Assembly: GCA_002894685.1 (NCBI GenBank)
Contig: NCRC01000006.1
Location: forward strand, 62,001-126,000
From: Salinivenus lutea
GTDB lineage: Bacteria; Bacteroidota; Rhodothermia; Rhodothermales; Salinibacteraceae
DNA length: 64,000 bases
Direction of reading: 5' to 3'
The first letter of the stretch is position 1. Every line of letters starts with the position of its first letter. The notes beneath the pieces were generated by a model. The model was not told the origin of the DNA. It saw only the letters and a list, made by a program, of their open reading frames with translations, and made no database searches. The translations under genes and the position numbers were made by a program. Positions 23,191 to 45,729 of this stretch are shown one piece after another.

Positions 23191-25455
23191 ATGGCTGCAG
23201 ATGAATCCGCGCCCGAACAGGAGCTCGCCCGTGATCTCGGGTTTTTGGAGGCATACACCATCGGCGTCGGGACGATGATCGGGGCCGGCATCTTCGTGCT
23301 GCCGGGCATTGTGGCGAACAACGCCGGACCGGCCGGCATGATTTCGTTTCTGATTGGCGGCGTGGTATCGCTCCTCACGGCCCTGTCGCTTTCAGAGCTG
23401 GCCACCGGTATGCCGAAGGCCGGCGGCAGCTACTACTACGTGAACACTGCGCTTGGCAGCTTCTTCGGCTCCATCGTCGGCTGGAGCATGTGGGGCGGCC
23501 TCATGTTCGCGACCGCCTTCTACATGCTCGGCTTTGGGCAGTACCTCACGTACTTCATGCCGCTGGGGGAGACCGGTGTGGCCATCGCCGCGCTTGTCAT
23601 GGCAGGACTACTTGTCGGCGTCAACTACCGAGGGGTGAAAGAGGCCGGGTCGCTCCAGAACCTGATCGTGATTTTGCTGATCGGGTTCATCCTCGTCTTC
23701 CTGTCCTTTGGGGTCTTCAACATCGACTGGGGCACCTTCCGCCCCTTCAACCCGAATGGCTGGGGGGCTGTGGCCTCCACCGCCGCCACCGTGTACGTCA
23801 CGTTCATTGGCTTCGAGGTGATCGCCACGAGTGCGGAGGAGATCAAGAATCCGGGGCGCAACCTGCCGCTCTCCATGATCGCCTCGGTGCTTACGCCCAC
23901 GGTGTTCTACGTGCTCGTGATGCTGGTATCGACCGGGGTGCTGCCGGTGGCCGAGCTGGCCGAGTCCTACATCCCGGTCGCCGATGTCGCCGATCAGTAC
24001 CTGGGGGAGATCGGGGCCCTCATGATGGTGCTTGGGGCGGTGCTGGCCACCGTTTCCAGCGCCAACGCGTCGATTCTGTCGGCGGCCCGCGTCAACTTTG
24101 CAATGGGGCGCGACAAGATTCTGACGAGCTGGCTCAACAACATCCATCCGGACTACCGGACACCCTACCGGGCCATCCTCGTGACGGGCGCTGTCATTCT
24201 GGGGCTCATCGCGCTCGGGGTGGGCATCGAGACGCTGGCCGACGTGGCGAGCTTTGCCTACCTCGTCACGTACGCGCTGGTGCACGTGGCCGTGTTCGTG
24301 ATGCGGCGGGCCGAGCCCGAGGGCTACGACCCCGACTTCCGACTTCCCGGACTGGCCTACCCGATCGTGCCGATTCTGGGCTTCTTCTCGTGCATCGTCA
24401 TTGTGGCCCAGATGCGCCCGCTCGTGCTCTTCATCGGCGGTGGCATCCTGCTGGTCGGTGTGGTCTGGTACCTGGTGTACGCCCGAACGCGAGCCGTGAA
24501 GCCAAGCCTCGTGGGCGAGGCGATCGCGGCGGAGGGGCGCCGCGTCCCTCCCAGCGGCCGCTACCGGGTGGTCATTCCCATCGCCAACCCGAACACCGAA
24601 CAGTTTCTCTTACGCTTGGGGGCCGCTATTGCCTCCGGGCACGCGGACGCAAATGGGCGCGAGGCTGAGCTCATTGCCGTCAGTGTCATCGAGGTGCCAC
24701 AGCAGACGTCTCTTGAGCAGGGCATTCAGTTCGAGGAGGAGCGCGTGCAGCGGCAGCAGGAGCTCCTGAAGAACGCCCGGGCGATGGCCGAAGACCTCAA
24801 CGTCGGCATTCGGACGCGGGCCATTGTGGGGCGCAGTGTCGGGGATGCTATCTTGAACGTTGTGGAGGAGGAACGGGCCTCCCACGTGGTACTTGGCTGG
24901 ACGGGGAGGCGCAAGCGGTTCGAGCACATCCTGGGGACCAACATCGACCCGATCGTTCGGGAAACGTCCTGCGAATTGACGGTCGTTAAGAAAGGCCCCA
25001 AGAAAGAGGTGGGAGAGGTGGTGGCCCTGGTGGGGCAGGGGCCCTACACCCGCCTGGCGGCCCGCCGCGCCGCCGAATTTTCTCAGAGCGATCCGGATGC
25101 CGGCCTGACCATGCTCAACGTCCAGCGCCCGGCGGAGAACGGGGAGTACGATCCGGAGGAAGAGGGGCGCGCGTTGATCGAGTCGGTCGCAAAAGAAGCG
25201 AACGTTGACGAGGACTACAAGGAACGCGTCCTCGTTGCCGACGGCGACATTCGCGAAACCCTGCTCGATGCGGTAGAAGATTACGACACGATCTGTGTGG
25301 GGGCCACCCGGAGCACGGCCGTGGCGCAGGCCCTCTTCGGGTCCATTCCGGAGGAGATTGGCGAGAAAAGTGAGGGCACCGTGGCGCTGGCCCGGGGGGC
25401 CGTGTATCAGCCGCGCTCCGTTTCACAGGGACTCATCGACTGGCTGTCGGGATAA
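23191..25455 (+). CDS. APC amino-acid permease with C-terminal USP tandem
   Basis: 754 residues. Permease domain about 1-435 with the APC motif IGVGTMIGAGIFVLPGIVAN and helix-2 LSELATGMPKAGGSYYYVNT. The cytoplasmic tail holds USP1 (about 448-600) and USP2 (about 605-735). USP1 has an exact nucleotide-binding motif G-2x-G-9x-G-T at G569, G572 and G582-T583 (GWTGRRKRFEHILGT), so ATP binding is predicted; USP2 has an imperfect one (GATRSTAVAQALFGS, Arg in place of the second Gly). A tail that binds nucleotide suggests transport gated by cell energy state. The start is the ATG at 23191; a TTG three codons earlier is less likely. It is convergent with ktrA 5 bases away. Confidence 0.9.
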   Translation: MAADESAPEQELARDLGFLEAYTIGVGTMIGAGIFVLPGIVANNAGPAGMISFLIGGVVSLLTALSLSELATGMPKAGGSYYYVNTALGSFFGSIVGWSMWGGLMFATAFYMLGFGQYLTYFMPLGETGVAIAALVMAGLLVGVNYRGVKEAGSLQNLIVILLIGFILVFLSFGVFNIDWGTFRPFNPNGWGAVASTAATVYVTFIGFEVIATSAEEIKNPGRNLPLSMIASVLTPTVFYVLVMLVSTGVLPVAELAESYIPVADVADQYLGEIGALMMVLGAVLATVSSANASILSAARVNFAMGRDKILTSWLNNIHPDYRTPYRAILVTGAVILGLIALGVGIETLADVASFAYLVTYALVHVAVFVMRRAEPEGYDPDFRLPGLAYPIVPILGFFSCIVIVAQMRPLVLFIGGGILLVGVVWYLVYARTRAVKPSLVGEAIAAEGRRVPPSGRYRVVIPIANPNTEQFLLRLGAAIASGHADANGREAELIAVSVIEVPQQTSLEQGIQFEEERVQRQQELLKNARAMAEDLNVGIRTRAIVGRSVGDAILNVVEEERASHVVLGWTGRRKRFEHILGTNIDPIVRETSCELTVVKKGPKKEVGEVVALVGQGPYTRLAARRAAEFSQSDPDAGLTMLNVQRPAENGEYDPEEEGRALIESVAKEANVDEDYKERVLVADGDIRETLLDAVEDYDTICVGATRSTAVAQALFGSIPEEIGEKSEGTVALARGAVYQPRSVSQGLIDWLSG

Positions 25456-25460
25456 TCAGC

Positions 25461-26132
25461 TTACGAGGTGGAGGCGTTGGCCATCTCCGTTACCTCGTCG
25501 AGTGTTTCGTCCGTTCCGGCGAGGATGAGGGTGTCGGTTCGCTCCAGGGGCTCGTCCGGGTCCGGGGGCACAATCATCTTGTCCGCCGCCGTGTCGTGGA
25601 TGCCGACGACCGACACGCCGTATTTTGATCGCACCGAGAGCTCGCGTAGCGTGTGGCCCCGCCAGTTGTCGGGCACCACAAGTTCCTCGACGCTCAGGTT
25701 GCGGGCCATTTTTACGTAGTTGAGTACGCCCTTTTCCGAAATGCGGCTTGCGAGATTGATTCCGGACTCCCGCTCCGGGAAAATTGTCTCGGCGACCCCC
25801 AGCTTTCGCATGATGCGCGCATGGTTGTCGGAGATCACCTTGACGTAGACCCTCTCGACCCCGAGGTCCGTCAGGGCCATCGTCGCCAGAATACTGGCCG
25901 TGATATCGTCGCCGGTGCTCACTACGGCCGCATCGCCCTCACTGGCGCCCACCTCGTCCAGCGTCTTTGTATCGCGCCCATCCCCCACGGCGGCCCGTGA
26001 GCAGTGGGGGGCGATCTCGTCCACCGCCTGCTCATCCACGTCCAGCGCGATGACGTCGTGCCCGCGGCTGTAGAGAGCCTCGGCCACGCTGGATCCAAAG
26101 TTGCCGAGGCCGACGATGACAAAGCGATTCAT
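25461..26132 (-). CDS. ktrA: KtrA-type potassium uptake regulatory subunit (RCK)
   Basis: 223 residues. RCK_N Rossmann domain from the start (FVIVGLGNFGSSVAEALYSR, GxGxxG, with the acidic D-V-D at the end of beta-2) and an RCK_C domain from about 140 (LVVPDNWRGHTLRELSVRSK ... PLERTDTLILAGTDETLDEV). KtrA forms an octameric ring that binds ATP/ADP and gates the KtrB channel-like transporter. It follows ktrB by 29 bases on the same strand and is the last gene of a five-gene minus-strand run; its 3' end is 5 bases from the convergent permease. Confidence 0.93.
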   Translation of the reverse strand: MNRFVIVGLGNFGSSVAEALYSRGHDVIALDVDEQAVDEIAPHCSRAAVGDGRDTKTLDEVGASEGDAAVVSTGDDITASILATMALTDLGVERVYVKVISDNHARIMRKLGVAETIFPERESGINLASRISEKGVLNYVKMARNLSVEELVVPDNWRGHTLRELSVRSKYGVSVVGIHDTAADKMIVPPDPDEPLERTDTLILAGTDETLDEVTEMANASTS

Positions 26133-26161: not shown

Positions 26162-27571
26162 TTATCCGATCGAAACGTCCTCGTAGGCGTAGCGAAAGTC
26201 GCCGAGCCGTTTGGGGCTGCGGGCCATGGCCGCCGCGAACGTGAGCGTGCCCACGCGGCCGATGAACATGAGCACGACCGTGAGGAGGCGGCCGGGGGGC
26301 GACAGATTGCCGGTGGCCCCCATCGAAAGGCCCACGGTGTTGAAGGCACTCACGGCCTCAAACATGTACGTGAGAAATGCGGGGACGCCGCCGGCCGCCG
26401 GAACCTCCAACCAGCTGAAGACGAAGATGCCGACCGTTACGATGCCGAACGCGACGATAAAGAGGCCCATGGCCTTCTGAAGGGTCGATTCCGGGATGGT
26501 ACGGTTCGAAATGCTGGTGGTCGGTTTGCCCCGGAGGCGCGACCAGGCCAGGAAGCCGAGCAGGGCAAAGGTTGTTGTCTTGATCCCCCCCGCCGTGGAG
26601 CCGGGCGAGCCGCCGATCATCATGTAGAGGATGGTTAGAAAGTTGGTGCCGGAGGTCGTTTCTCCATACGGAATGGTGTTGAAGCCGGCGGTGCGGGGCG
26701 TGATGCTGGCGAAGAGCCCGTTGACGAGGCGTTCAGCCAGGGTCATTCCGGCGAGCGTGTTGTGCCACTCGAACGCCGTGAAGGCTGCCCATCCCGCCAC
26801 GATGAGGAATGCGGTCGTGCCGAGCACAATCTGGGAGTGGACGGACAGGCGAAACCGATCCTCTTTTTGGCGTTTTCGTCCCCACAGGTTGATCTCCTCC
26901 AGCGTCAGAAAGCCGAGGCCGCCCAGGACGATGAGCGACATCACCACCATCAGCAGCGGGAGGTTTCCCTGAAAGGCCTCCAGGGAGGTCGTAAACGTTG
27001 AAAAGCCGGCGTTGCAGAAGGCGCTCACGGTGTGGAAAATCGAGTGCCACACGGCCCCGGTCCACCCGAAGCGCGGGACCCAAAAGATGTAGAGCAAGAC
27101 GCCTCCGATGACCTCGGCCACGAAGGTAAAGCGAAAGACGGCCCAGGTGAGTGATTTGTAGTCAATATCCCCCACTACCTCGGCCGGCCCGCCGGCCAAC
27201 GTCTCGTGACGGAGGGATAGGCGTTGGCCGAGTGCCACGATGATCACGGAGGTAAACGAGATGATCCCGAGCCCGCCGAGCTGGATGAGGAGGAGGATGT
27301 ACGCCTGGCCCCACGTCGTAAAATACTCGGCCGTGTCCACCACGATAAGTCCCGTCACGCAGATGGCGCTGGTGGCGGTGAAGAGGGCATCCACCCAGTT
27401 CAGGGGCGGTCCGGTGTAAAGGCCGGGCAGCACCATGAATCCAATGGTGCCCAGCGTAACGAGGAGCAGAAACGACCCGACGAAGAGCTGAGACGGGCTC
27501 AGTGCTCGCCACCACGAGCGGAGAAATGAACGCGGGGGGGTGGGGAAGTCGTCGATCGCAGGAGAGTCCAT
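26162..27571 (-). CDS. ktrB: KtrB-type potassium transporter membrane subunit
   Basis: 469 residues; sodium-dependent K+ uptake. The four selectivity-filter loops are intact: ATSAICVTGLIVVD, HTVSAFCNAGFSTF, SITPRTAGFNTIPYG and EAVSAFNTVGLSMGA, each with the conserved filter Gly. The N-terminus is a short polar segment before the first helix. This closely matches the KtrB/TrkH branch and pairs with ktrA downstream. The start is the ATG at 27571; the TTG immediately upstream is unlikely. It sits 170 bases after the histidine kinase gene, so it may have its own promoter or share the two-component transcript. Confidence 0.93.
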   Translation of the reverse strand: MDSPAIDDFPTPPRSFLRSWWRALSPSQLFVGSFLLLVTLGTIGFMVLPGLYTGPPLNWVDALFTATSAICVTGLIVVDTAEYFTTWGQAYILLLIQLGGLGIISFTSVIIVALGQRLSLRHETLAGGPAEVVGDIDYKSLTWAVFRFTFVAEVIGGVLLYIFWVPRFGWTGAVWHSIFHTVSAFCNAGFSTFTTSLEAFQGNLPLLMVVMSLIVLGGLGFLTLEEINLWGRKRQKEDRFRLSVHSQIVLGTTAFLIVAGWAAFTAFEWHNTLAGMTLAERLVNGLFASITPRTAGFNTIPYGETTSGTNFLTILYMMIGGSPGSTAGGIKTTTFALLGFLAWSRLRGKPTTSISNRTIPESTLQKAMGLFIVAFGIVTVGIFVFSWLEVPAAGGVPAFLTYMFEAVSAFNTVGLSMGATGNLSPPGRLLTVVLMFIGRVGTLTFAAAMARSPKRLGDFRYAYEDVSIG

Positions 27572-27741
27572 CAATCACGAGGTGGCGTTTCGGGGACGGT
27601 CTCATGGAAACCCCTCAGGGCACCACGCCTTGGGACCGCTGTGCGTGGTGAGTGATTCGTGGGGCACGGCGGAATGGGCATTCTCTTTCGCCCCCACCTA
27701 CCACGACAGACACTGGAAAGGGTCCCTGTTCATGAAAGGAT

Positions 27742-29577
27742 TCAAGGGGTGGCCGATGCAATCGGCAGAGTAAAGGTGAACCTACTGCCCTCCCCTGGCG
27801 TCGAGTCGACCCAGATGCGCCCATCGTGGGCATGGATAATTTCCTGTGCAATGGCGAGCCCAAGCCCCGTCCCTCCCGAGGCCTGATCGCTATCGATCTG
27901 CACGAACTTATCGAAGATCTTCGACTGGTACTCGTAGGGAATGCCGGCGCCCTCGTCCTGGACGGAGATGTGGACCGACCCGCCGACCATCCGGCCGGAG
28001 ATACACACCTGGTCGCCGGCCTCGGAGTAGCGGAGGGCGTTGGAGAGAAGGTTGTTGAGGACCCACGTCACTTTATTCGGATCGGCCTTTACCGCAGGCA
28101 GATTATCACGCAGGTCGACCTCAAATTCAATCCCGGCGTCCTCCGCCTGTGCCCGAAGGGCCTCCACAGCCTTTTCGCACATCAGGCCCACTGGGATCGA
28201 CTCAATATCCATCTCCATGCGCCCGGATTCAATCTTCGAAAGGTCTAACAGATCATCAATTAGTGCCCGCAGACGCTCAATATCGTCAATCGCGGCCGCC
28301 ATGAGTTCACGGTCGCGTGCGTCAAAGGCGTCCTCGTGGCGTTCATTCAACAGGCGGACGCTCATGCCGATGCTCGTGAGCGGGGTTTTGAGTTCATGGG
28401 AGGCCGTAGCCACGAACTCGCTTTTGAGGCGGTTGAGCTCCTGCAGTTCGGTGACGTCGCGCAGAAGTAGGATGGCGGCGAGCATTTCCTCGTCGGCGTC
28501 ACGGACCGGGTTCACGACAAACTGGAAGTGGCGGAGATCTCCCTCCCGCTCTACAGTGAGCGTGTCGCCAGGCTCACTCGGGGCGGACTTCTCTCCCGAC
28601 TCGATCGTCTCCCGAATTTGCTGGAACAGCCGCTCGTTTCGCAGGGCTTCAAGCACATGATGACCCTCCACCTCGTCGCGGCGGATCTCCAGTACCCACT
28701 CGGCGGTCGGGTTCATGTTAATGACATCGTAGTCGGCGTTCACGACTAACAATCCGTCATCGATGCTCTGTAGAATCGCTTCGCTCTTGCGCTGCTCCGC
28801 CATGATCTTCTCAATGTTGAGGTCGCGGTACGAGCGCAACTCCGCGGCCATATCGTTGAACTGGTCGGCGAGGCTGCCGAGCTCGTCGGTGGCGCCAGTC
28901 TGCACCTCTACGTCGTAGTCGCCAGCCGCGATCTTTTGGGTGGCGGCCTCCACCTTTTGGATGGGACGCACGATGCGCCCCGCCAGCACCACGCTAATCA
29001 CGAGTCCGAGCACGATGGCACCCACCCCGATGCCGCCCACCGACCAGATGGCGCGCGTCGCAACCGACTCGGCCCGTTCGGAGGCCTGGACCATCGTCTG
29101 CTGGTTGAGATTTCGCAAATCGCCGGCGGCTCCCCGGACAGCCTGGAAGGTGGGGAGCATGGTCGTCTCGTACGGCCGTGTCCCGTAGGTGCTGGGGGTC
29201 TGGAGCAGGGAGTCAAAACGAACCGTGTACAGATCGAACGTAGAGTCGATGCGTGCGAGGACGGTCTCTTCGCCCTCAATCGTGATGTTGTCCTGCGCCC
29301 GGGCCAGCCAGCGCGACACCTGATTTTGATTGCGCCGAAACTGCTGGAGGCCCTGCTCCCGATTCTGGAGGTGCAACAGCACGGCGCTGTCCATGCGCTC
29401 CAGGCCGTTGATCATGTTCTCCGCGGCGATGATGCTCCGGTAGTTTTCGCTCAGGATGGCCTCCGAAGCACTCCCAAGGTTTTGGATATTCGTGAGGGCC
29501 CACCCGAGCACGAGGCCCAGAAGGAGCAGGACGGTGCCATTCGCCAGCAGAATTTTCGTGCGAACGGTCCAGGTCAT
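27742..29577 (-). CDS. Membrane-bound sensor histidine kinase (HAMP-PAS-HisKA)
   Basis: 611 residues. Layout: TM1 about 8-28; periplasmic helical domain 30-177 rich in coiled-coil pattern (LLHLQNREQGLQQFRRNQNQ, four-helix-bundle-like); TM2 about 178-199 (SVGGIGVGAIVLGLVISVVL); HAMP 200-252 (RIVRPIQKVEAATQKIAAGD); PAS about 262-370; HisKA with phospho-acceptor H394 in SHELKTPLTSIG; HATPase (N box NNLLSNALRYS, G1 VQDEGAGIPYEYQ, G2 GGTGLGLAI) to about 607. The layout resembles KinB/NtrB-like kinases. It precedes ktrBA and follows two response regulators, so it probably senses an envelope or osmotic cue for K+ control. Confidence 0.93.
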   Translation of the reverse strand: MTWTVRTKILLANGTVLLLLGLVLGWALTNIQNLGSASEAILSENYRSIIAAENMINGLERMDSAVLLHLQNREQGLQQFRRNQNQVSRWLARAQDNITIEGEETVLARIDSTFDLYTVRFDSLLQTPSTYGTRPYETTMLPTFQAVRGAAGDLRNLNQQTMVQASERAESVATRAIWSVGGIGVGAIVLGLVISVVLAGRIVRPIQKVEAATQKIAAGDYDVEVQTGATDELGSLADQFNDMAAELRSYRDLNIEKIMAEQRKSEAILQSIDDGLLVVNADYDVINMNPTAEWVLEIRRDEVEGHHVLEALRNERLFQQIRETIESGEKSAPSEPGDTLTVEREGDLRHFQFVVNPVRDADEEMLAAILLLRDVTELQELNRLKSEFVATASHELKTPLTSIGMSVRLLNERHEDAFDARDRELMAAAIDDIERLRALIDDLLDLSKIESGRMEMDIESIPVGLMCEKAVEALRAQAEDAGIEFEVDLRDNLPAVKADPNKVTWVLNNLLSNALRYSEAGDQVCISGRMVGGSVHISVQDEGAGIPYEYQSKIFDKFVQIDSDQASGGTGLGLAIAQEIIHAHDGRIWVDSTPGEGSRFTFTLPIASATP

Positions 29578-29712: not shown

Positions 29713-31377
29713 TCACGCTCCGGTTAGGCGTCGGCGGAGGCCCTCTAAAAACGAGGGAGAGGTGGCGTGCGGTCCCCGAACGAGTGCGATGGGAGACGCA
29801 GTTGACGCGGAGAGGCGACCGGAAAACGAGTCGGCATCCGAGACGGACCACGAGCCAGTACGGCCGGCTCCGACGCAGATCCGGTCACTAGCGGATGCGC
29901 ACCGGGCCGCAGCGGCCTGTACCTCCGATGAGACAATCACACGTCCCTCGTACTGCTCGTCCGCCAGGCCTGCCCGATCAGCTACGTCCCACAGGAGGCG
30001 CTGTCCCCTGTGTTCGAGGGCGTCGACACTTGCGGTTCCGTCGTTGGATTGGATGGTGAGGAGGGTCAAAGTCCCAACGCCGCTCCCCTGGGCCCACTCC
30101 CGCGCTCGGCGGGCCACAAACGGGGCGTGTGGACTGTCGGCAATGAAGGCCGTCACGTCCGCCCCTTCGCCAGGGGCCCCGTCCGTACCGGGCCGGAGGA
30201 GGGTGACCTCGCACGAAACTGCGTCCAGGACGTCAGTCCAACTTGTGTCCGGGGCCTCCCCGTTCGTTCCTGGCCAGCGGCCCACGAGGTGCTGCACGGA
30301 TCGATCGGCGATTGTATTTTCCACAACGGCGGCAGTTTGGTGCGCCACAACCGCCAGGGGGGTCACGCGAAGGGCACTGCCGTCCACCGATTCGGCCAGG
30401 GCCTCTAACTGCCACTGCACCTCCTGCAGGCGATCCTGGTGTGTCTCCTTGGCCTGCGAGAGAGTGAGCTGCCGCGGCACCTCCACGACGCTGAGAAGCA
30501 GACACTCGCCGTTCGCATGGGCTCCCGCCGAGGCAGCAGCGAGCTCTACGAGGGCCCGATGGTCTGCCGTCGGGCCGTCGGCCACGGATTCATCCAGGAC
30601 GGTGAGGACGCGGTGGGGGATGTCGTCTTCGCTCAGGGATCGGCTCGCGGTGGTGCGTCCTTCCGAAGTGTGCGCGCCGTCGGCATCCGATGGCGACGGT
30701 GGAAGAAGAGAGTCCGCCCGGTCGATGGGAAACTGATCGTTTTCCCGAAGACGGTCGAGCAAAAGCTGGGCCGTGGCGGTGGTTCCCTCCCGCTCCACGG
30801 CGGCCTCCAGGTGCCGACGGGCCGCTTCGAGGTTGCCGACCGTACCCTCCAGAAGCCCGAGCAAGGTGTGGGCCTCGGGCCGTGCCTCATCCTGGGCGAT
30901 TGCCTCCTCCAGGCAGTGACGTGCCGCAGTGGTGCGGCGGTACCGGAGGTGCCACGTGGCGAGTTGCACCCACTCGTCATAGGGGGTTGCGTCGGGCGGC
31001 GCGGAGGGCTCCCGAAAGACCTGCTCCACCAGGTCGCGGAGGGCATCGAGGCTAATAGGCTTGAGCAATACGTCGACGGCGCCACGGCGCATGGCCTGCA
31101 CGGCGTTTTTGACTGTGCCGTGGGCCGTCACGATGACGACCGGGAGCTCGGGGGCCTGGCGGCGCGTGCGCTCTAGCGTCTCCAACCCGCTGAGGCCCGG
31201 CATGCGGAGGTCGAGCAGTACGAGATCGTACTCGGCCTCGCCAAGTTGTGAGAGGGCCTCGGTCCCGTTCGGCACGGTGTCGACAGTCAGGCCGATGTCT
31301 TCGAGGGCCTGCCGGAGGGTGAGGCGGACGTTTTTCTCGTCGTCGACGACGAGCACGCGGGGGGCAGTTGTAGACAT
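29713..31377 (-). CDS. Response regulator with REC-TPR-USP-USP architecture
   Basis: 554 residues and no DNA-binding domain. REC about 6-118 (phospho-Asp D56 in LVLLDLRMPG, Lys106 in LLKPISL), a TPR-like helical repeat region about 135-210 (LATWHLRYRRTTAARHCLEE, EAHTLLGLLEGTVGNLEAAR), an acidic linker, and a tandem USP pair about 254-400 and 405-545. USP1 contains LLLSVVEVPRQLTLSQA, close to LIAVSVIEVPQQTSLEQG of the permease at 23191, and both proteins end with a similar block (IALVRG... and VALARG... followed by a GL-x4-L-T/S-G tail). Nucleotide motifs are degraded in both USPs. The USP module appears to derive from the same source as the permease tail; the regulator may act by binding a protein partner. 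Confidence 0.8.
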   Translation of the reverse strand: MSTTAPRVLVVDDEKNVRLTLRQALEDIGLTVDTVPNGTEALSQLGEAEYDLVLLDLRMPGLSGLETLERTRRQAPELPVVIVTAHGTVKNAVQAMRRGAVDVLLKPISLDALRDLVEQVFREPSAPPDATPYDEWVQLATWHLRYRRTTAARHCLEEAIAQDEARPEAHTLLGLLEGTVGNLEAARRHLEAAVEREGTTATAQLLLDRLRENDQFPIDRADSLLPPSPSDADGAHTSEGRTTASRSLSEDDIPHRVLTVLDESVADGPTADHRALVELAAASAGAHANGECLLLSVVEVPRQLTLSQAKETHQDRLQEVQWQLEALAESVDGSALRVTPLAVVAHQTAAVVENTIADRSVQHLVGRWPGTNGEAPDTSWTDVLDAVSCEVTLLRPGTDGAPGEGADVTAFIADSPHAPFVARRAREWAQGSGVGTLTLLTIQSNDGTASVDALEHRGQRLLWDVADRAGLADEQYEGRVIVSSEVQAAAARCASASDRICVGAGRTGSWSVSDADSFSGRLSASTASPIALVRGPHATSPSFLEGLRRRLTGA

Positions 31378-31433: not shown

Positions 31434-32102
31434 TTACTCAAGCCGGTAGTCGGCGGGGGTGCGTACCAACGGGGACCGACTGATGTTATCCCGGTTGTAC
31501 ATCGCAGGGTCATATCCCGGCTGCAGCGCCAGCGCGGACTGGTAATAGCGCTGGGCCTCCTCGTACTGATTGCTCAGTTGCATGAGTACACCGAGGAGGT
31601 TGAACGCCTCGGGCCGCGTGGCGTCGATCGCAAAGGCCTTCTGGACGTGCTGGCGGGCCTGCTCGTAGTCCTCGTTCCGAATCCCCGCCCGGGCGTCGCC
31701 GATGTGTTTGTCGTACGCCTCCCCGGAGTTCGGGGCCTCTTGCGCGAGCGTCTGTGCGACCGTCGTCCGGATCTGTTCAGGCGTAAACGGCTTGTGGATG
31801 AAATTCTCGGCGCCCTCGCGGATCATCTCGACGGCCTGATCGACGGTTCCGTGCGCCGTGACGATGATAACCGGCAGCTCCGGGCGGCGCTCTTTGATCG
31901 CATCGAGTACGTCCCGGCCGTCCATCTCCGGCATGCGAAGATCCAGGAGGACCAGGTCGCACTTGTTCTCTTCGATGTGATCGAGAGCCACCGGCCCACT
32001 CTCGGCCGTCGTGACATGGTACTCGGCATCTTCGAGTACTTGTTTGAGGGAGAGCCGGACAGAGGCCTCGTTGTCGACGATCAGAAGTCGGGGCGTGTTC
32101 AT
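31434..32102 (-). CDS. Response regulator, REC-TPR, no DNA-binding domain
   Basis: 222 residues. REC domain about 4-118 with phospho-Asp D54 in LVLLDLRMPEMDG, Thr/Ala switch VTAHGTVDQAVEM and Lys in FIHKPFTPEQIR. A TPR-like region follows (about 130-200: ARQHVQKAFAIDATRPEAFN, LLGVLMQLSNQYEEAQRYYQ), ending in a polar tail (SPLVRTPADYRLE). It is the first gene of the minus-strand run, 56 bases before the REC-TPR-USP gene; the two look like paralogues, the second having gained the USP tail. Output is probably by protein interaction. The start at 32102 follows a structured leader. Confidence 0.9.
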   Translation of the reverse strand: MNTPRLLIVDNEASVRLSLKQVLEDAEYHVTTAESGPVALDHIEENKCDLVLLDLRMPEMDGRDVLDAIKERRPELPVIIVTAHGTVDQAVEMIREGAENFIHKPFTPEQIRTTVAQTLAQEAPNSGEAYDKHIGDARAGIRNEDYEQARQHVQKAFAIDATRPEAFNLLGVLMQLSNQYEEAQRYYQSALALQPGYDPAMYNRDNISRSPLVRTPADYRLE

Positions 32103-33145: not shown

Positions 33146-34519
33146 TTATTCCTCCGGAGACCCCGTGAGCCCATACCTCTTGCGCTTGCGGTAGAGGGTG
33201 GCCGGGTCGATGCCCAGCACCTCCGCGGCCCGGTCGAGCGTCTCGGTGGCCTCGACGACTCGCCGGACGTGCGCCTCCTCGATCGTCTCCAGCGACACGA
33301 GTGCGCCCACTCGTTCGGTTGGAGTCGCCTCCTCCCCGCCGGCAAGCGGCAGCTGTTCCCCGTCGATCCGCGGTTGCTTTGTCAGAATGACGACCCGCTC
33401 GATCACGTTGCGCAGCTCGCGGACGTTGCCGGGCCACGAGTGCGCCCGGAGCCCGTTCTCTGCGTCTCCGGTGAGTCCCTCGACGGGCCGGTTGTACTTG
33501 GACGAGAAATGCGCAATAAACCGACGCGCCAGCGGGAGAATGTCGTCTGGGCGCTCGCGGAGCGGGGGCACCGTGAGTTCGATCACGTTGAGCCGGTAGA
33601 GCAGGTCTTGCCGGAACGTGCCCTCGTCGACAGCGGCCTCCAGGTCCTGATTCGTCGCGGCCAGGAGCCGCACGTTCGCCGACCGCGTCACCGGGTCGCC
33701 GACACGCTCATATTCCTTGTCCTCGATGAAGCGCAACAGTTTCGGCTGGAGGCCGGGCGGCAGGTCGCCGATTTCGTCGAGCAAGAGGGTGCCCCCTTCC
33801 GCCTGCGACACGCGCCCCGGGTGGGTCTCGGTGGCCCCGGTGAACGCCCCCTTCGCGTGCCCGAAGAGCTCGCTCTCCAGCAGGTCCTTCGACAGCGACG
33901 GGCAGTGGACCGTGACGAACGGTTCGTCAGACCGCGGGCTCCACCCGTGAATGGCCCGGGCCAGGCGTCCCTTCCCGGTCCCGTGTTCGCCGCGCAGTAG
34001 CACGGTGACGTCCTCCACGGCGACCTCCCGGGCCGTGTGCACCACCTCCTGCATCGCCGGATCGGTCGGGTCGAACGGGGCATCGACCTCCTCCCGTGCC
34101 GCTCGGTCCTCGAAGAGCTCCACCTTTCGCTCCAGGTTGCGCCGCTCGGCGGCCTTCTCGGCGGCCTGCCGGACCTGCGCCGGGGTGAAGGGCTTGGGGA
34201 GGTAGTCAGTGGCTCCGCGGCGCATCGCCTCCACCGCCGAATCGATTGAGGAATGGGCCGTGATCACGAGCACTTGCAGGTGGGGCTGCTCGTCGAGCAG
34301 CTCCGGCAGGAGGTCCATCCCGGACGTGCTCGGCAGCCGCAGATCCAGAAACGCGAGGTCGTACGGACGGCGCCGAATCGCTTCGAGCGCCGATTCGGCC
34401 CCGCCTGCCTCCGTAACCTTGTAACCCTCTCCTTCCAGGCAGACTCGCAGAGAATTGCGGATGCGGGGCTCGTCGTCAATAACGAGAATGCGCAGGGGGG
34501 AAGGCACAGTTGTACCCAT
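33146..34519 (-). CDS. NtrC-family sigma-54-dependent response regulator
   Basis: 457 residues. REC domain about 10-122 (phospho-Asp D59 in LAFLDLRLPSTSG), AAA+ domain about 150-385 with Walker A GEHGTGKGRLAR (His replaces the usual Ser), GAFTGA loop in KGAFTGATETH, Walker B GGTLLLDEIGDLP and the arginine-finger region LLYRLNVIELTVPPLRERPD, and a Fis-type HTH about 415-450 (LDRAAEVLGIDPATLYRKRK). An intact GAFTGA implies contact with sigma-54, which must be encoded elsewhere. It is the only DNA-binding regulator among the three REC proteins here and is divergent from the antiporter operon. Start chosen at 34519; the longer frame is not coding-like. Confidence 0.92.
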   Translation of the reverse strand: MGTTVPSPLRILVIDDEPRIRNSLRVCLEGEGYKVTEAGGAESALEAIRRRPYDLAFLDLRLPSTSGMDLLPELLDEQPHLQVLVITAHSSIDSAVEAMRRGATDYLPKPFTPAQVRQAAEKAAERRNLERKVELFEDRAAREEVDAPFDPTDPAMQEVVHTAREVAVEDVTVLLRGEHGTGKGRLARAIHGWSPRSDEPFVTVHCPSLSKDLLESELFGHAKGAFTGATETHPGRVSQAEGGTLLLDEIGDLPPGLQPKLLRFIEDKEYERVGDPVTRSANVRLLAATNQDLEAAVDEGTFRQDLLYRLNVIELTVPPLRERPDDILPLARRFIAHFSSKYNRPVEGLTGDAENGLRAHSWPGNVRELRNVIERVVILTKQPRIDGEQLPLAGGEEATPTERVGALVSLETIEEAHVRRVVEATETLDRAAEVLGIDPATLYRKRKRYGLTGSPEE

Positions 34520-34734
34520 AGAGCATACGTTTCGGAGCAGAGAGGACAGGATCGTGGTATGCGGTGAAAGAACAATTCGTTTGCATCGGTAAGGGGCGGC
34601 GAGACTCGAACATCGGGGAGCTTCGTTTGTCCCCGATTGCGGACCGTTTTTTCGCCTTGTACCCTGTGGGATGCCTCTCTCCTTCTCGATAAGCAGTTCT
34701 GCGGCCGTCGGGCCCCGTCTCATCTCCCCTGCCC

Positions 34735-36363
34735 ATGATCGAATTTGAACTAATCCACAGCCTGGGGGTCATGGTGCTTGCCGCGCTGGGCGTGACCGTG
34801 GTCGCGCGGGCCGTTCGGGTGCCGAATATCGTCGCGTACATCGGGGCGGGGCTGTTGCTGGGGCCGGTCCTCGGCGTGCTGGACGTGACCCACACCATCG
34901 AGCTGATCTCGGAATTCGGAATTGTCCTCCTGCTCTTTCTGGTGGGGCTGGAGCTGAGCCTCGACAAGATCAAGGAGGTGGGCACGACGGCGTTCGTGGC
35001 GGGCGGGGTGCAGATGGGCGGCACGGCCCTGGGCGGCGGCCTGTTGGCCGGGCTCTTCGGGGTCCCGATCGTCGAAGCCATTGTGATGGCCGTGGCGGTG
35101 ATGTTCAGCAGCACGGTCGTCGTGGTCAAGCTGCTCGAAAAGCGGGGGGACCTGGAGGCTCCGTACGGACAGATCGCGGTCGGGGTGCTGCTCGTGCAGG
35201 ACCTGGTGGTGGTGTTGGTCCTCACCTTCGTGGCCGGGCTCTCGGGGCCCAATGAGCTGGCGTGGGCGGACGTGGCCTGGGGGCTGGGGCAGGCTTTTGT
35301 GGGAATGGCTCTTCTGGGGGGCGCGATCGTGGCGGCGGCCCGGTACGTATTGCCGCCCGCCATCCAGTGGATTTCAGAGATGACGGATGGGCTGTTCATC
35401 TGGAGCCTGTTCTGGTGTTTTCTGGTGGTGCTGGGGGCGGAGGCCCTGCACCTGTCGCCCGAGCTGGGGGCCTTTCTGGCCGGCATCGCCCTCGCCCAGC
35501 TGCCCCAGTGCCACGAGCTGCGCCATCGCGTGCATCCGCTCATGAACGTCTTTATCATCGTCTTCTTCGTGGCGCTCGGCCTCCAGATGGAGCTGGGGGC
35601 GGCCCTCGACCGGTGGCCCCTCGCCCTGGCGCTCACCGTCTTCGTGATGAGCATCAAGCCGCTCCTCTTGTTCGGCGTGCTCCCCCGCCTGGGGCACGAC
35701 GAGGAGACCTCGTTCCGGACCGGGGTGAGCCTGGCGCAGGTCAGTGAGTTTTCGCTCATCTTCGGCGCCCTGGCGGTCTCGACGGGCCTGATCGACGAGA
35801 CCCTGCTGTCGGTCCTCACGCTCGTGGGCCTGCTCACCTTTGCGCTGTCGGCCTTCCTGCTCCTGTACAACGACCGCCTCTACGCCGCCGTCCGCCCCTA
35901 CCGCCCGCTGGCGTGGCTGGGGGCCCGGCAGGACGCGCCGACGCGCCCCAACGACGGGATCCGCGGCCACGTCCTCGTCGTGGGCATGAACACGCTCGGC
36001 CGCTGCCTCGCCGACCGGCTGACGGCGGCGGGGGAGACCGTCGTGGCCATCGACACCGATCCCGACAAGCTCGCGCCCCTTGCGGTGCGCACCGTCCACG
36101 GCAACGCCATCCACAAAACAACGCGCGAGGAGGCCCACTGGGACGCGGCCCGCCTCATTGTCTCCACCCTCAGCATCGAAGGCACCAACAACCTGCTGGC
36201 CTACCACGCACAACGGGCCGGCGTGCCGTGCAGCATCCACGCGTTCGATCGCACCAGCGAAGAGAGCCTTCGGTCCCTCGGGGTCGATCATCTGATTCGG
36301 TCGAAGCACGAGGGGGCCCGGCGCCTGCTCCACGAATTGGAATCGAGGGAGGTGTTGGCATGA
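34735..36363 (+). CDS. CPA2 cation/proton antiporter with C-terminal RCK_N domain (KefB-like)
   Basis: 542 residues. About 12 membrane helices in 1-395 with family motifs VPNIVAYIGAGLLLGPVLGV, EFGIVLLLFLVGLELSLDKI and VMFSSTVVVVKLLEKRGDLE. A cytoplasmic NAD-binding RCK_N domain follows from about 410 (GHVLVVGMNTLGRCLADRLT) to the end; no RCK_C. CPA2 members exchange K+ or Na+ for H+. The stop shares an ATGA overlap with the next antiporter gene, so the two are co-translated and may form a heteromer. It is divergent from the sigma-54 activator, with 215 bases between. Confidence 0.92.
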   Translation: MIEFELIHSLGVMVLAALGVTVVARAVRVPNIVAYIGAGLLLGPVLGVLDVTHTIELISEFGIVLLLFLVGLELSLDKIKEVGTTAFVAGGVQMGGTALGGGLLAGLFGVPIVEAIVMAVAVMFSSTVVVVKLLEKRGDLEAPYGQIAVGVLLVQDLVVVLVLTFVAGLSGPNELAWADVAWGLGQAFVGMALLGGAIVAAARYVLPPAIQWISEMTDGLFIWSLFWCFLVVLGAEALHLSPELGAFLAGIALAQLPQCHELRHRVHPLMNVFIIVFFVALGLQMELGAALDRWPLALALTVFVMSIKPLLLFGVLPRLGHDEETSFRTGVSLAQVSEFSLIFGALAVSTGLIDETLLSVLTLVGLLTFALSAFLLLYNDRLYAAVRPYRPLAWLGARQDAPTRPNDGIRGHVLVVGMNTLGRCLADRLTAAGETVVAIDTDPDKLAPLAVRTVHGNAIHKTTREEAHWDAARLIVSTLSIEGTNNLLAYHAQRAGVPCSIHAFDRTSEESLRSLGVDHLIRSKHEGARRLLHELESREVLA

Positions 36364-37934
36364 CGGAACTCGCAATTCTTTTGGGACTGGCCGCCGTCGG
36401 CTTTGGGCTGGCGCGCTGGACGCACGTGCCGGCCATTCCGTTTTTGCTCGTGGGCGGGCTCGCGCTCAGTGCATCCGGCGCCGTGGGCGATCCTGAGTTC
36501 GTCGAGAACGTACTGTTTCTGAGCGTCTCCGTCTTGCTGTTTGTGGCAGGGACGGACCTGAGCCTCGAGCGCGTGGGGCCGTTTGCGGGCGGCGCGGTCA
36601 AAATCGGCCTTGTGCAGTTTGTAGGCCTTGCCGGGGCGGGACTCGGCATTGCGTATGGACTCGATTACGGCCCGACCGACGCCCTGTATCTGGCCCTGGC
36701 CCTGGCCGCCAGTTCGACGATCGTCGGGGTGCGCCTGCTGCAGCGCCGGCAGCAGATGTTTGAGCCGTTTGGGCGCACGGTGCTCGGGGTGCTCCTCCTG
36801 CAGGACATTCTTGTCGTGCTCCTCCTGCCCCTCCTCATCCAACTCCCGGGCGGCCCGTTAGCCATCTTCGGCAGCCTGGGCGGGACGGCCCTTCTGCTTG
36901 TCGGCGTCGGCATCGTCATGAAGGGGGTCGTGCCGCTGCTCTTAGAGAGCGAACTCGACGCCGAGACCCAGCTCCTTGCGGTGCTCGGAGTGTTGTTCGG
37001 CTTCATGGGGGCGGCCTGGTGGCTCCACGTGCCGCTCTTCGCCGCGGCCTTTCTGGCGGGCGTATCGCTCTCAGGGTTTCCGTTCAGCGGCATCGTGCAC
37101 GGGGAAATGCAGCCGCTCTACGACTTTTTCTCGGCCCTCTTTTTCGTGGCGCTGGGCGGCGCCGCGGCCCTTCCCGACCTTGCCCTGCTGGGGCACGCGG
37201 CCCTCTTCACCGGGGCCGTGCTGATAATTACTCCGCTCCTTGTCACCGTCGTGGGCGAGTGGGCCGGCCTGGTGGCGCGCCCCGCCCTGGAGAGCGGGCT
37301 GCTGCTGTCGCAGACGAGCGAGCTGTCGCTGGTGGTGGGGCTGCAGGCCCTCGTCGTCGGCCAAATTGGGGGCGAGGTGTTTTCCGTGATCGTGCTCACC
37401 ACCGTGTTTACCATGATCGCTACGCCGATCCTGACGAGCGAGGTGGTGGTGCGGGAGCTCGTGCGGTGGCACCCGTCGCGCCGCTCGGGGGCGCTGCCGG
37501 AGGTGCCGAGCAACCACGTGCTTTTGCTCGGCGGGGGGCAGAGCGTGCGTCCGGTTCTGCGCCTCCTCCGCGAATCGGACTACGAGGCGGTGGTCGTCGA
37601 CGAAGATCCGGCGGTGGTTGAGCGGCTCCGGGCCCGGGGTGTGACGTGCGTGCGGGGCGATGGCGGCGACCTCTCGGTACTCCTGGAGGCGGGGGCGGCG
37701 CAGGCCCAGGTCATCGTGTCGACCCTTCGGGATCCATCGTCGCTCGGGCCGCTGCTCGACTACGTAAGCGACCGGGTGCCCGTCCTCGTCCGTGTCTTCG
37801 AGGACGCGGAGGCCGAGTGGGTGACGGCGCGAGGGGGAACGCCCATTCCGTTTGCCCACGCCGCCGCCGATGCGTTTATGGACTGGTTTGAGCAACAGGC
37901 GCCCACGGACTCGGCCGTCGGGGATGCCAAGTAG
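36360..37934 (+). CDS. Second CPA2 antiporter with RCK_N domain
   Basis: 524 residues, related to but distinct from the preceding antiporter. About 12 helices (RWTHVPAIPFLLVGGLALSA, VLFLSVSVLLFVAGTDLSLE, LALAASSTIVGVRLLQRRQQ), then a cytoplasmic Rossmann domain from about 380 (NHVLLLGGGQSVRPVLRLLR). The membrane half is shorter and the helix-4 region (ASSTIVGVRLLQRRQ) is of the KefB/NhaK kind. The start ATG overlaps the TGA of the first gene (ATGA), a sign of coupled translation and of a two-subunit antiporter. Confidence 0.9.
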   Translation: MTELAILLGLAAVGFGLARWTHVPAIPFLLVGGLALSASGAVGDPEFVENVLFLSVSVLLFVAGTDLSLERVGPFAGGAVKIGLVQFVGLAGAGLGIAYGLDYGPTDALYLALALAASSTIVGVRLLQRRQQMFEPFGRTVLGVLLLQDILVVLLLPLLIQLPGGPLAIFGSLGGTALLLVGVGIVMKGVVPLLLESELDAETQLLAVLGVLFGFMGAAWWLHVPLFAAAFLAGVSLSGFPFSGIVHGEMQPLYDFFSALFFVALGGAAALPDLALLGHAALFTGAVLIITPLLVTVVGEWAGLVARPALESGLLLSQTSELSLVVGLQALVVGQIGGEVFSVIVLTTVFTMIATPILTSEVVVRELVRWHPSRRSGALPEVPSNHVLLLGGGQSVRPVLRLLRESDYEAVVVDEDPAVVERLRARGVTCVRGDGGDLSVLLEAGAAQAQVIVSTLRDPSSLGPLLDYVSDRVPVLVRVFEDAEAEWVTARGGTPIPFAHAAADAFMDWFEQQAPTDSAVGDAK

Positions 37935-38086
37935 GACGGAATAAGTTCACGAACGCGTCGTTGGAGGGAATTGCACTTGCATCCGCGCCCCATCATCTTA
38001 GGCTCCGAACCGTCCAGGCCAGAGGGCGTCGGGGGAGCACGTCGAGGGGCCGCTCGACCAACTGCGCATTTTGTATCCGCTACACG

Positions 38087-39427
38087 ATGAAAGTGGTCAT
38101 CATCGGCGTCGGACAGGTCGGGCGCAGCGTGGCCCACGCGCTGTCGACGGCCCACGAGGTCGTCGTGGTCGACAAAGACGCCGAGCGCCTCGACTCGGTG
38201 CGGTCCGAGACGGATGTGCTGACCTATGAAGGAAACGGGGCCAAGGTCGACGTGCTGAAGGCGGCGGGGGTGCCAGACGCCGACCTCGTGATTGGCAGCA
38301 CCAGCGACGATCAGAGCAACATTCTGATTTGCAGCACGGCCCGGGCACTTCACCGGGAGGCGTTTACCATCGCCCGCGTGGCCGAGACGGAGTACCTCGC
38401 CACGTGGTCGCAGCTGCGGGAGGCGTTCAATGTCGACTTTATGGTGGGGGCCGATCACCTCACGGCCCGCAGCATCGTGGAGGTGGCCGGCCTCCCCACG
38501 GCCCGGGATGTGGAGTATTTTGGGCAGGGGCGGGTCGTGATGGCCGAGTTTACGATTCCGGAGGAGAGCCCGGTTGCGGACCGTGTCGTCCAGAATCTCA
38601 ACCTGAACGAGGGAGTGAACCTCGTCGCTACCTTCAGCGACGAGACGATGGAGATTGTACGCGGGGCGACGCGACTCCGGGCGGGCATTCGGCTGCTGGT
38701 GGTGGGGCGGCCGAGCCAGGTGGAGCGGTTTGCGATGACGCTTACCCCTCAGGTTCGACGACAAAAGATCCGTCACGTTCTCATTCTCGGCGGGGGCGAG
38801 ATCGGGTATCAGACGGCGCGTTTGTTTGAGCAGCGCGGCCTGGAGCCGCGCCTTGTCGAACAGGACCCGGAGCGCGCCCAGGTGTTGGCCCGGGAGCTTC
38901 CCGACACGCTGGTGCTGCAAGATGACGCCATGGACCCGTCGTTCCTGCGCCGCCAGGGCGTAGCGGACGCCGACCTCGTGGTGTCGGCCCTCACGCCCGA
39001 CGAGCGCAACCTGCTGACGTCTGTTCTGGGCCGGGAGCTGGGGGCGTCGCAGGTCGTCTCGGTGGTCCACAACAAAAAATACGAGTCGGTCTTTGCCAGC
39101 AGCGGCATCGACGTGACGATCCATCCGCGCCGAGAAGTCATCGAGGAAATCCTTCGCCACACCCGCACACGGGGCGTTGAGAAAATTACGTTCATCGAGG
39201 GCGACCGGGGAGAGGTGGTGGAAGTAGAGCTCGCGGACGACAGTCGTCTGACGGGGCGCCCGCTTCAGGAGGCCGCCCAGGACGTGCCCCACAATTTTGT
39301 GCTCGGGGCCCTCATTCGGGAGGATGAGGTGCTCATTCCACGCGGGAAGACGGTGCTTCGAGGGGGCGACCATCTCGTCCTGTTCGTGGACGCAGACGTT
39401 GCGGACGAGGTGTTGGGGGCCATATGA
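38087..39427 (+). CDS. trkA: Trk potassium uptake regulatory protein TrkA (two RCK units)
   Basis: 446 residues, the usual length. Two RCK_N-RCK_C units: the first has VIIGVGQVGRSVAHAL with the acidic residue DKD at the end of beta-2, and RCK_C about 145-225; the second has HVLILGGGEIGYQTARLFEQ and RCK_C about 365-445 (ELADDSRLTGRPLQEAAQDV, IPRGKTVLRGGDHLVLFVDA). It forms the cytoplasmic nucleotide-sensing ring of Trk. The stop TGA overlaps the trkH ATG (ATGA). Start chosen at 38087; the frame upstream is Arg/Ser-rich and not protein-like. Confidence 0.95.
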   Translation: MKVVIIGVGQVGRSVAHALSTAHEVVVVDKDAERLDSVRSETDVLTYEGNGAKVDVLKAAGVPDADLVIGSTSDDQSNILICSTARALHREAFTIARVAETEYLATWSQLREAFNVDFMVGADHLTARSIVEVAGLPTARDVEYFGQGRVVMAEFTIPEESPVADRVVQNLNLNEGVNLVATFSDETMEIVRGATRLRAGIRLLVVGRPSQVERFAMTLTPQVRRQKIRHVLILGGGEIGYQTARLFEQRGLEPRLVEQDPERAQVLARELPDTLVLQDDAMDPSFLRRQGVADADLVVSALTPDERNLLTSVLGRELGASQVVSVVHNKKYESVFASSGIDVTIHPRREVIEEILRHTRTRGVEKITFIEGDRGEVVEVELADDSRLTGRPLQEAAQDVPHNFVLGALIREDEVLIPRGKTVLRGGDHLVLFVDADVADEVLGAI

Positions 39428-40923
39428 TTGTCGGTCGTCGCTTGCGTCGCGTGTGCAGCGTACTGGGGCCTGTTCTTAAGTGGTTTGCGGCGCTCTTTCT
39501 GGTGCCGATCGCCACGGCGCTCTACCACGGCGAGCCCGTGGGGCCCTTCCTCGCCCCCCTCGCCGTCTCGTTTGCCCTCGGCGCGGCGGGCGAATGGGTG
39601 GGGCGCGACAGCGATCTCACCGTCGACGACGGGTTTTTGCTCGTCACGCTCACCTGGATCGGGGTGTCGCTTCTGGGGAGCATTCCCTATCTCATGAGCG
39701 GCACCGGGAGCTTTGCGGTGCCGGTGAACGCGATCTTCGAGAGCTTCAGCGGCTTCTCGGCCACCGGGTCCACAATCCTGCTGGACATCTCCATCGAAAA
39801 GCACGGGGCGGCGCTCATGCTCTGGCGACAACTCACGCAGTGGGTGGCCGGCATGGGCATCCTCGCGCTGGCGGTGGCCGTCCTGCCGCGCCTGTCGGCC
39901 GGAGGGGCCCAGTTCCTCGACGCGGAGGTGCCGGGGCCGCGCCTGGAGCGCCTCACGCCCCACATTGCGGAGACGGCCCGGCGCCTGTGGCTGCTGTACC
40001 TCGGGTGCTCGGTGGTGCTTCTGGTCCTGCTGCTGGGCGTGCACTACGGCGGATTGGCGCCCAACATGACGCCCTATCAGGCCCTGGCACACGTGTTTAC
40101 GACCATCCCCTCCGGCGGATTTTCCCCCAAGGCGCGGAGCATTGAGGCGTTCGCGCCGGCGGTGCAGTGGATCATTATCCCGTTCATGTTTGTGGCGGCG
40201 ATGAACTTCACGCTGCTCTGGCAGACGATCTTTTCCGACCCGAAGGCCCCCGCCCGCGATCCGGAGTTTCGGGTCTATCTGTCGATTTGTGCGGGGGGAA
40301 GCCTGCTGGTGAGCCTCATGCTGTGGGGCGACGGGCAGTTCGCCACCCTCGAGGAGACGGTCCGGCAGGGCACGTTCCAGACCGCCACGCTGCTCACGAC
40401 GACCGGCTACGCGAGCACTGACTTTGCCGTCTGGGGCGAAGAGGTCCTTGCCGTCCTGCTCCTTCTGATGTTTGCGAGCGGGTGCGTGGGAAGCACGTCC
40501 GGCGGCCTCAAGCTCATGCGCTGGATCGTCGGGATGAAGGTCATCGGGCGGGAGCTCTTTCAGATGATTCACCCCTCGTCCGTGCGGCCCATGTGGCTGG
40601 GGCGGCGGACGGTCAAAGAGCCGGTGGTGCGCGGCATTCTGGTGGTGATTCTTACGTACCTGCTGCTGGTGGTGGGGGGGACCGGGGTTGTGGCCGTGGA
40701 CGCCTACCGGGCCGGGGTGGACATGGCCCTCGGCGAGGCCCTGACCGGCACGCTGGCCGTGCTGGGGAATATCGGGCCGGGCTTCGGCACGCTCGGGCCC
40801 ATGGGCGGATTCGAGGCGCTGCCGGCCACGACGAAGGTGTTCATGTGCCTGCTGATGGTGGCCGGGCGGCTGGAGGTGATGACATTTCTCGTTGTGCTGG
40901 CGCCCAGCTACTGGCGAGGGTGA
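39424..40923 (+). CDS. trkH: Trk potassium transporter membrane subunit TrkH
   Basis: 499 residues. The four filter loops are present: FESFSGFSATGSTIL, HVFTTIPSGGFSPKA, ATLLTTTGYASTDF and LAVLGNIGPGFGTLG. The protein begins with a short cytoplasmic Arg-rich stretch (MIVGRRLRRVC) and helix one, and has the longer TrkH N-terminal helix pair rather than the KtrB layout. Four-base overlap with trkA gives a coupled Trk pair. A second K+ uptake system (KtrAB) lies 12 kb away, on the opposite strand. Confidence 0.95.
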   Translation: MIVGRRLRRVCSVLGPVLKWFAALFLVPIATALYHGEPVGPFLAPLAVSFALGAAGEWVGRDSDLTVDDGFLLVTLTWIGVSLLGSIPYLMSGTGSFAVPVNAIFESFSGFSATGSTILLDISIEKHGAALMLWRQLTQWVAGMGILALAVAVLPRLSAGGAQFLDAEVPGPRLERLTPHIAETARRLWLLYLGCSVVLLVLLLGVHYGGLAPNMTPYQALAHVFTTIPSGGFSPKARSIEAFAPAVQWIIIPFMFVAAMNFTLLWQTIFSDPKAPARDPEFRVYLSICAGGSLLVSLMLWGDGQFATLEETVRQGTFQTATLLTTTGYASTDFAVWGEEVLAVLLLLMFASGCVGSTSGGLKLMRWIVGMKVIGRELFQMIHPSSVRPMWLGRRTVKEPVVRGILVVILTYLLLVVGGTGVVAVDAYRAGVDMALGEALTGTLAVLGNIGPGFGTLGPMGGFEALPATTKVFMCLLMVAGRLEVMTFLVVLAPSYWRG

Positions 40924-41088
40924 GGAACGCACCGGGCCGCCCATCGTGGGGCGCTGGCCCACCGGGACCGATGCGCGTCGCGTTCGGCTTTGCGTGCGTG
41001 AACGGTGCGGGACGATGGTGGAGGCGATCCGGGGCGTTCCGCCTGTCGCGGCCCCTCATGTCCTTTTTCGAAACGTTGGGGAGCGTAT

Positions 41089-43299: not shown

Positions 43300-43498
43300 T
43301 GGAAGCAAGGAGGAAGCCCAAAAGGGGCGGGGGCCACGCCGCGAGCCCTCTGCTCCCCTCTCCCTCCGGCGGGGCGGCGCGAAACGAGACGGTCTTTTTA
43401 CAGGATCCGCGTCAAGTTTCGGAGAGGGTGGGAACCGTTTCCCCCCTGTCTCGGCTTTAGTTCCCTCCGATCTTTTCCCTCTGACTCCCTGATTTCCT

Positions 43499-45631: not shown

Positions 45632-45636
45632 ACGGT

Positions 45637-45662
45637 CCGGTTGCCGACACCGGTTGCCGACA
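45637..45662 (+). repeat. 13-base tandem direct repeat after the permease gene
   Basis: CCGGTTGCCGACA occurs twice without a gap, five bases after the permease stop codon. It is a simple two-copy duplication; no function is implied, though it could be a slippage or insertion scar. Confidence 0.8.
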
Positions 45663-45729
45663 GGGCGGCCGCCGGTTCGGATCCCCCCTGCACATTTGCA
45701 TCACCGTGGCACCTGAAGACCCACTTCGC

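Follow-up and report, generated by a model that had tools for sequence, protein, structure and literature searches.

A response regulator with a permease-type USP-USP tail in a Trk transport locus of Salinivenus lutea

The regulator and its domains

The window considered here is a stretch of 64,000 nucleotides from the halophilic bacterium Salinivenus lutea (contig NCRC01000006.1, positions 62,001 to 126,000 of the forward strand). Within it, six genes follow one another on the minus strand: an NtrC-type sigma-54 regulator (33146-34723) whose GAFTGA motif is intact, a REC-TPR response regulator (31434-32102; open reading frame and Pfam), the REC-TPR-USP-USP response regulator that is the subject of this work (31377 down to 29713), a sensor kinase (27742-29577), the potassium transporter TrkH (26162-27574; Pfam E 6.9e-58) and the regulatory subunit TrkA (25461-26132; TrkA_N and TrkA_C by Pfam). 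The kinase is made up, according to Pfam, of a 4HB_MCP-like sensor, HAMP, PAS, HisKA and HATPase, and it is presumed to be cognate to the regulator because the two are adjacent and occur in the same genomes. On the plus strand, and convergent with trkA, lies a CAT-type amino-acid permease (23191-25455; Pfam and model), its stop codon 5 bp from that of trkA. Residues 456-754 of the permease (24556-25452, plus) form a cytoplasmic USP-USP tail homologous to that of the regulator.

The regulator is 554 amino acids long, and its features, all on the minus strand, are drawn from the open reading frame, Pfam, an alignment of orthologues and an AlphaFold model. A receiver domain (REC, residues 8-117; 31027-31356; Pfam E 2.5e-31) is followed by a TPR-like helical region (residues 132-211; 30745-30984), which scores 25.3 bits with TPR_14 against a Pfam cut-off of 23.5 bits. 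Then come a disordered, quickly evolving linker (residues 213-252; 30622-30741) and two USP-like domains, the first of which (residues 253-400; 30178-30621) has lost its nucleotide loops and retained a VPRQLTLSQ loop, while in the second (residues 405-540; 29758-30165) LTLLTIQ and IALVRG remain as core strands. The same layout is seen in the AlphaFold model (mean pLDDT 83, pTM 0.55): REC, then five helices of the TPR type, disorder in the linker at 225-249 where pLDDT falls below 50, and the USP-like alpha/beta fold twice over, with pLDDT mostly 80-95 in both lobes. Foldseek matches the model to the tandem USP 3cis. In the receiver, D12, D13, D56, T84 and K106 are identical across the alignment of the four regulator orthologues, and all active-site residues are present.

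Pfam does not readily see the pair of USP domains. The regulator scores 11.4 bits with PF00582 (Usp), where the gathering cut-off is 24, and it is missing from a genome-wide Pfam search for Usp, so a profile of permease tails had to be built specially. Nor does a Pfam scan taken to E values of 1 find any DNA-binding domain in the regulator, helix-turn-helix or other. The original prediction, made from the DNA sequence, of a REC-TPR-USP-USP protein with no DNA-binding domain, preceded by a REC-TPR gene that lacks the USP part, is borne out on both counts, REC and TPR by Pfam and the USP pair by the model.

A search for the same architecture in other genomes finds orthologues in Salinivenus iranica CB7 (76%), which falls in the same genus group as the window genome, in the metagenome-assembled genome (MAG) QS_3_64_15 (64%) and in the MAG SW_4_67_19 (G010), of another genus, where the open frame is of 445 codons and the TPR region is absent. 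Since it recurs in these three, the fusion of REC with USP domains is not an artefact of assembly. Among 27 genomes of the family, the kinase is found in the four that have the regulator and in no other. The regulator is present and no permease orthologue is detected in G018 (83% complete) and G010 (62% complete), the permease is present and the regulator is not in G012, and in S. iranica the two lie on different contigs.

Kinase, Trk and permease as neighbours

TrkH-TrkA is adjacent to the kinase and regulator in three of the four genomes (G000, G018 and G010), and in the fourth, that of S. iranica, the contig ends past the kinase. The constant partner of the regulator is HK-TrkH-TrkA, not the permease. 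In nine genomes of family f14, a 30% kinase orthologue and an NtrC regulator stand side by side, and TrkH-TrkA is no more than about 5 kb away (in one of the nine, TrkH alone is recognised). Kinases of this family are commonly paired with NtrC-type regulators in other Bacteroidota too, and the two genes adjoin at most of the loci sampled there that have such a kinase. Trk was found near the pair at none of 16 sampled loci in Bacteroidota other than Rhodothermia, and the idea of a pan-Bacteroidota Trk two-component system is rejected on that count.

Further afield, plasmid pMB03 of Acaryochloris sp. carries, in order, HK, REC-TPR, TrkA, TrkA and TrkG, and it is the sole plasmid among 72,556 with a near-full match to REC-TPR. 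A transposase region interrupts its kinase gene and separates the HAMP portion from the catalytic one.

The permease type has its own association with Trk. It and trkA-trkH converge in each of the six genomes of another genus (g32) that were examined, and in three haloarchaea (Halobellus, Halorubrum and Natrononativus) it lies upstream of trkA-trkH and in line with it; it is not beside Trk in S. iranica, in G012 or in the more divergent permeases sampled. Given these ties to trkA-trkH, in bacteria of a second genus as well as in haloarchaea, a link between regulator and permease is plausible. Adjacency alone would say little here, since the window is rich in both Trk and permease genes.

The stretch from 34735 to 46000 is a dense island of ion and amino-acid transport, with two NhaP-type antiporters bearing TrkA_N, two tailed permeases, and tandem TrkA (37961-39427) and TrkH (39424-40923). 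An amino-acid permease at 43499-45631 (plus) is fused to PTS EIIA_2-like and TrkA_C domains, a regulatory tail of a different kind. There is also a second trkH-trkA pair (G000 C3:45497-46909), 94% identical to that of the window and with no adjacent kinase or USP regulator. As for promoters, no match to TGGCACNNNNNTTGCW, one mismatch allowed, offers a sigma-54 promoter for the NtrC neighbour in the window, and sigma-70 promoters and terminators are not above chance.

Kinship and function of the tail

By BLASTP, the tail of the regulator matches that of the 23191-25455 permease with an E value of 6e-20, at 27% over 264 amino acids, collinear to the C-terminus. The strings from which the kinship was originally predicted are found in both proteins, LLLSVVEVPRQLTLSQ in USP1 of the regulator against LIAVSVIEVPQQTSLEQ in the permease, and at the ends IALVRG...GLRRRLTG against VALARG...GLIDWLSG. 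Their likeness is far above chance. On the profile built from permease tails alone, with no regulator included, the four regulators score 120-153 bits, as against a maximum of 1.1 bits for 300 shuffles of the window regulator's tail and 26-51 bits for stand-alone tandem USPs of the same genome. With a profile of the genome's own tandem USPs, the four regulators score 4-10 bits, and with another permease-tail profile 3-17 bits. These scores rule out a chance likeness of USP strings. A third protein named for comparison, the permease at 41089-43299 (plus), has a very divergent USP tail that scores 32 bits on the permease-tail profile and is not close to the regulator. The string VPxQxxLxQ is limited to the one permease clade and three of the four regulators, and it is absent from USPs and from other permease tails. 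Searches with the regulator tail through 296 Bacteroidota and 245 Rhodothermia genomes (overlapping samples, about 540 genomes together) match regulators and permease frames only, besides short fragments at contig edges, and the matches among plasmids are haloarchaeal amino-acid permeases.

The trees speak both to the kinship and to the donor. Regulators form one clade in ML trees (100/98 and 99/99), and a clade of regulators and permease tails has support of 99/99, or 90/96 with extra haloarchaeal rows. A topology that joins the regulators to stand-alone USPs is rejected (AU p 0.022). Judged from its sequence, then, the regulator tail belongs to the CAT-type permease-tail family. The original prediction had gone further and taken the neighbouring permease as the source. 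That part does not stand: regulators and Salinibacter permeases as one clade are neither favoured nor rejected (AU p 0.21 and 0.15), a position of the regulators outside all permeases gives AU p 0.31 and 0.38, and in the best tree they join the tails of haloarchaeal permeases with support of 91/93, which falls short of significance, on long regulator branches that may distort the placement. The regulator tails, that of another genus among them, lie on a single branch. The capture is therefore old, earlier than the split of the two genera, and the tail is not a recent copy of the neighbouring permease.

A structural comparison brings in another family of transporters. Among 50 structural matches listed for residues 254-538 of the model, the best solved ones are cytoplasmic domains of the SLC12 cation-chloride cotransporters (CCCs): 6vwa (Z 20.3, rmsd 3.2, 252 aligned), 7aio (Z 19.4) and the prokaryotic CCC 3g40 (Z 19.4). 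No tandem-USP structure is among the 50. In the model of the permease, a CCC-like tail is joined to a membrane domain of the CAT type (6f34, Z 46.6). A sequence profile of the regulator tail run against the PDB finds USPs and no CCC; the likeness to CCCs is structural only and belongs to a predicted model with a pTM of 0.55.

What sets the regulator tail apart from its relatives is the nucleotide site. The ATP motif G-x2-G-x9-G-[ST] is present in 26 of 28 bacterial permease tails, 6 of 8 archaeal ones and 8 of 9 of the genome's own USPs, and in 0 of 4 regulators, much as had been predicted from the intact motif of the permease and the degraded one of the regulator. Both lobes have lost their nucleotide loops, AN-P, G-W-x-G...GS and GxGP in all, or, by residue, Y/P/ANP, G367, G377, D381 and GxGP, and FGS in part. 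Nineteen of the 44 columns conserved in permease tails are kept by all three Salinibacter-type regulators, and these fall in the core strands, in the VPxQxxLxQ loop (E-x9-P-x-Q) and at R424 and R534. The c-di-AMP motif of KdpD is missing from all four regulators. In both USP lobes dN/dS is 0.16-0.23 against S. iranica and 0.18-0.4 against G018; it is 0.4-0.7 in the linker, and selection on USP2 is as strong as that on the receiver. By this measure the tail is under purifying selection. With the pocket lost and dN/dS low, it appears to be maintained, but not as a nucleotide binder, and the regulator tail probably cannot bind ATP or ADP.

What, then, is maintained? It is very improbable that these are ordinary USP domains with a general family likeness and no special relation to permeases. 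LLxVVEVP-like strands are common in USPs, and the tail profile matches USP structures by sequence, but more than 100 bits separate the scores on permease-tail and USP profiles, the C-terminus is shared collinearly with the permease, and the trees reject the USP grouping. Nor is it at all probable that the tail is a ligand-sensing input in the manner of KdpD, through which ATP or c-di-AMP acts on the receiver. The genome does encode a diadenylate cyclase domain, and the USP domain of KdpD binds c-di-AMP though it has no Walker-like motif (PMC8214093). This explanation is weakened because the pockets are lost: the nucleotide loops are gone from both lobes, and no regulator has the KdpD motif.

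An unlikely alternative is that the regulator is a phosphate sink, or a partner that sequesters the kinase, tuning the activation of NtrC by a kinase they share, and that the tail serves only oligomerisation or stability. Two non-DNA-binding receivers do lie between NtrC and kinase, two genes that adjoin at most of the Bacteroidota loci sampled for this kinase family, and the active site of the receiver is wholly intact. A sink, however, has no need of a 300-residue tail, and selection on USP2 matches that on the receiver. Doubtful, though less so, is the view that the tail acts on Trk alone: the regulator, once phosphorylated, would bind to TrkA or TrkH and control the uptake of K+, the permease being merely the historical source of a domain. 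Trk is the constant neighbour, the REC-TPR of Acaryochloris stands next to TrkA/TrkG with no USP tail, which shows that REC-TPR goes with Trk by itself, and two genomes with the regulator have no detected permease orthologue. Both of those genomes are incomplete, however, and the gain of this permease-type tail, and the purifying selection on it, would be left unexplained.

I propose, tentatively and at something short of an even chance, that the regulator is a phospho-controlled, nucleotide-blind mimic of a transporter tail, acting by protein contact on transport through Trk or the permease, a target that I infer. As a response regulator it is atypical in having an output domain derived from a transporter. 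That the output works through protein contact with transporters is favoured by the intact receiver, the lack of a DNA-binding part, the maintenance of a pocketless tail, and the repeated finding of kinase, Trk and permeases of this type together. All this suggests a response regulator that does not bind DNA and that uses the cytoplasmic domain of a transporter in trans as its output, the signal being passed on by contact with a transporter rather than with DNA.

According to this proposal, the membrane kinase would sense a salt, osmotic or K+ cue and phosphorylate the receiver of the regulator, and phosphorylation would free or position the tail. The tail might then pair with the cytoplasmic domains of transporters, as CCC tails pair with each other. 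Its most likely partner would be the permease's own tail, encoded in the same island of ion and amino-acid transport, or possibly the Trk gating complex; docking on the permease tail, or competition with it, as the original prediction had it, would be forms of such contact. As a partner probably blind to ATP and ADP, the regulator would set the activity of transport post-translationally, and the adjacent NtrC regulator would handle transcription. A more specific version, which I regard as possible but rather doubtful, makes the regulator a detachable transporter subunit: once phosphorylated, it would enter the dimer of cytoplasmic domains of the APC/CAT permease by swapping in its own USP pair, blind to nucleotides, or dock on Trk, or both, gating the transport of K+ and amino acids with no recourse to transcription.

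If the proposal is correct, transport in a bacterium is controlled by a two-component system that mimics the regulatory domain of the transporter itself. Halophiles of the salt-in type would then have a fast way of controlling K+ and osmotic state, and nature would offer a case in which the dimerising cytoplasmic domain of the APC/SLC12 type is used in trans. The regulators would also be compact soluble proteins with which to probe how such tails regulate transport.

Comparison with known systems

Both a kinase with a USP domain, KdpD (PMC8214093), and transporters with USP-like tails (PMC8280820) are already described. No description was found in the open-access literature of a response regulator with a USP pair of the transporter type at its end, or of a Trk-linked REC-TPR system, so that the architecture REC-TPR-USP-USP, unfamiliar when it was predicted, is provisionally so still.

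KdpD/KdpE resembles the system of the regulator in being a K+-linked two-component system with a USP domain that has no Walker-like ATP motif (PMC8214093). KdpD, however, has one USP, located in the kinase and acting as a c-di-AMP sensor, whereas the regulator has a pair at its C-terminus, no c-di-AMP motif and no annotated DNA binding. The kinase adjacent to the regulator, unlike KdpD, has no Pfam match to Usp. The HK and REC-TPR beside TrkA/TrkG on the Acaryochloris plasmid are like the window locus, 55% identical in the kinase core and 38% in REC-TPR, but there is no USP tail. TeaD and the stand-alone USPs found beside transporters link USP to transporter, as is the case here, except that TeaD binds ATP and has no receiver.

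CAT-type permeases with a USP-USP tail, from bacteria of the class and from haloarchaea, have sequence homology with the regulator over the whole tail, to the last residues. The regulator differs from them in having neither membrane domain nor nucleotide motif. The comparison with the cytoplasmic domain of the SLC12 CCCs is one of structure. In KCCs this domain is USP-like and serves an APC-superfamily transporter both for dimerisation and for nucleotide binding: the inner lobe holds the dimer interface, and the ATP/ADP site is like the one in TeaD, which regulates TeaABC as a subunit and is the nearest DALI match of the nucleotide site of KCC1 (PMC8280820). The regulator tail is joined to a receiver rather than to a membrane domain, has lost the nucleotide loops and is only about 11% identical, but it shares with the CCC domains (KCC, NKCC, 3g40) two USP-like lobes in a matching arrangement, at Z scores of 18-20.
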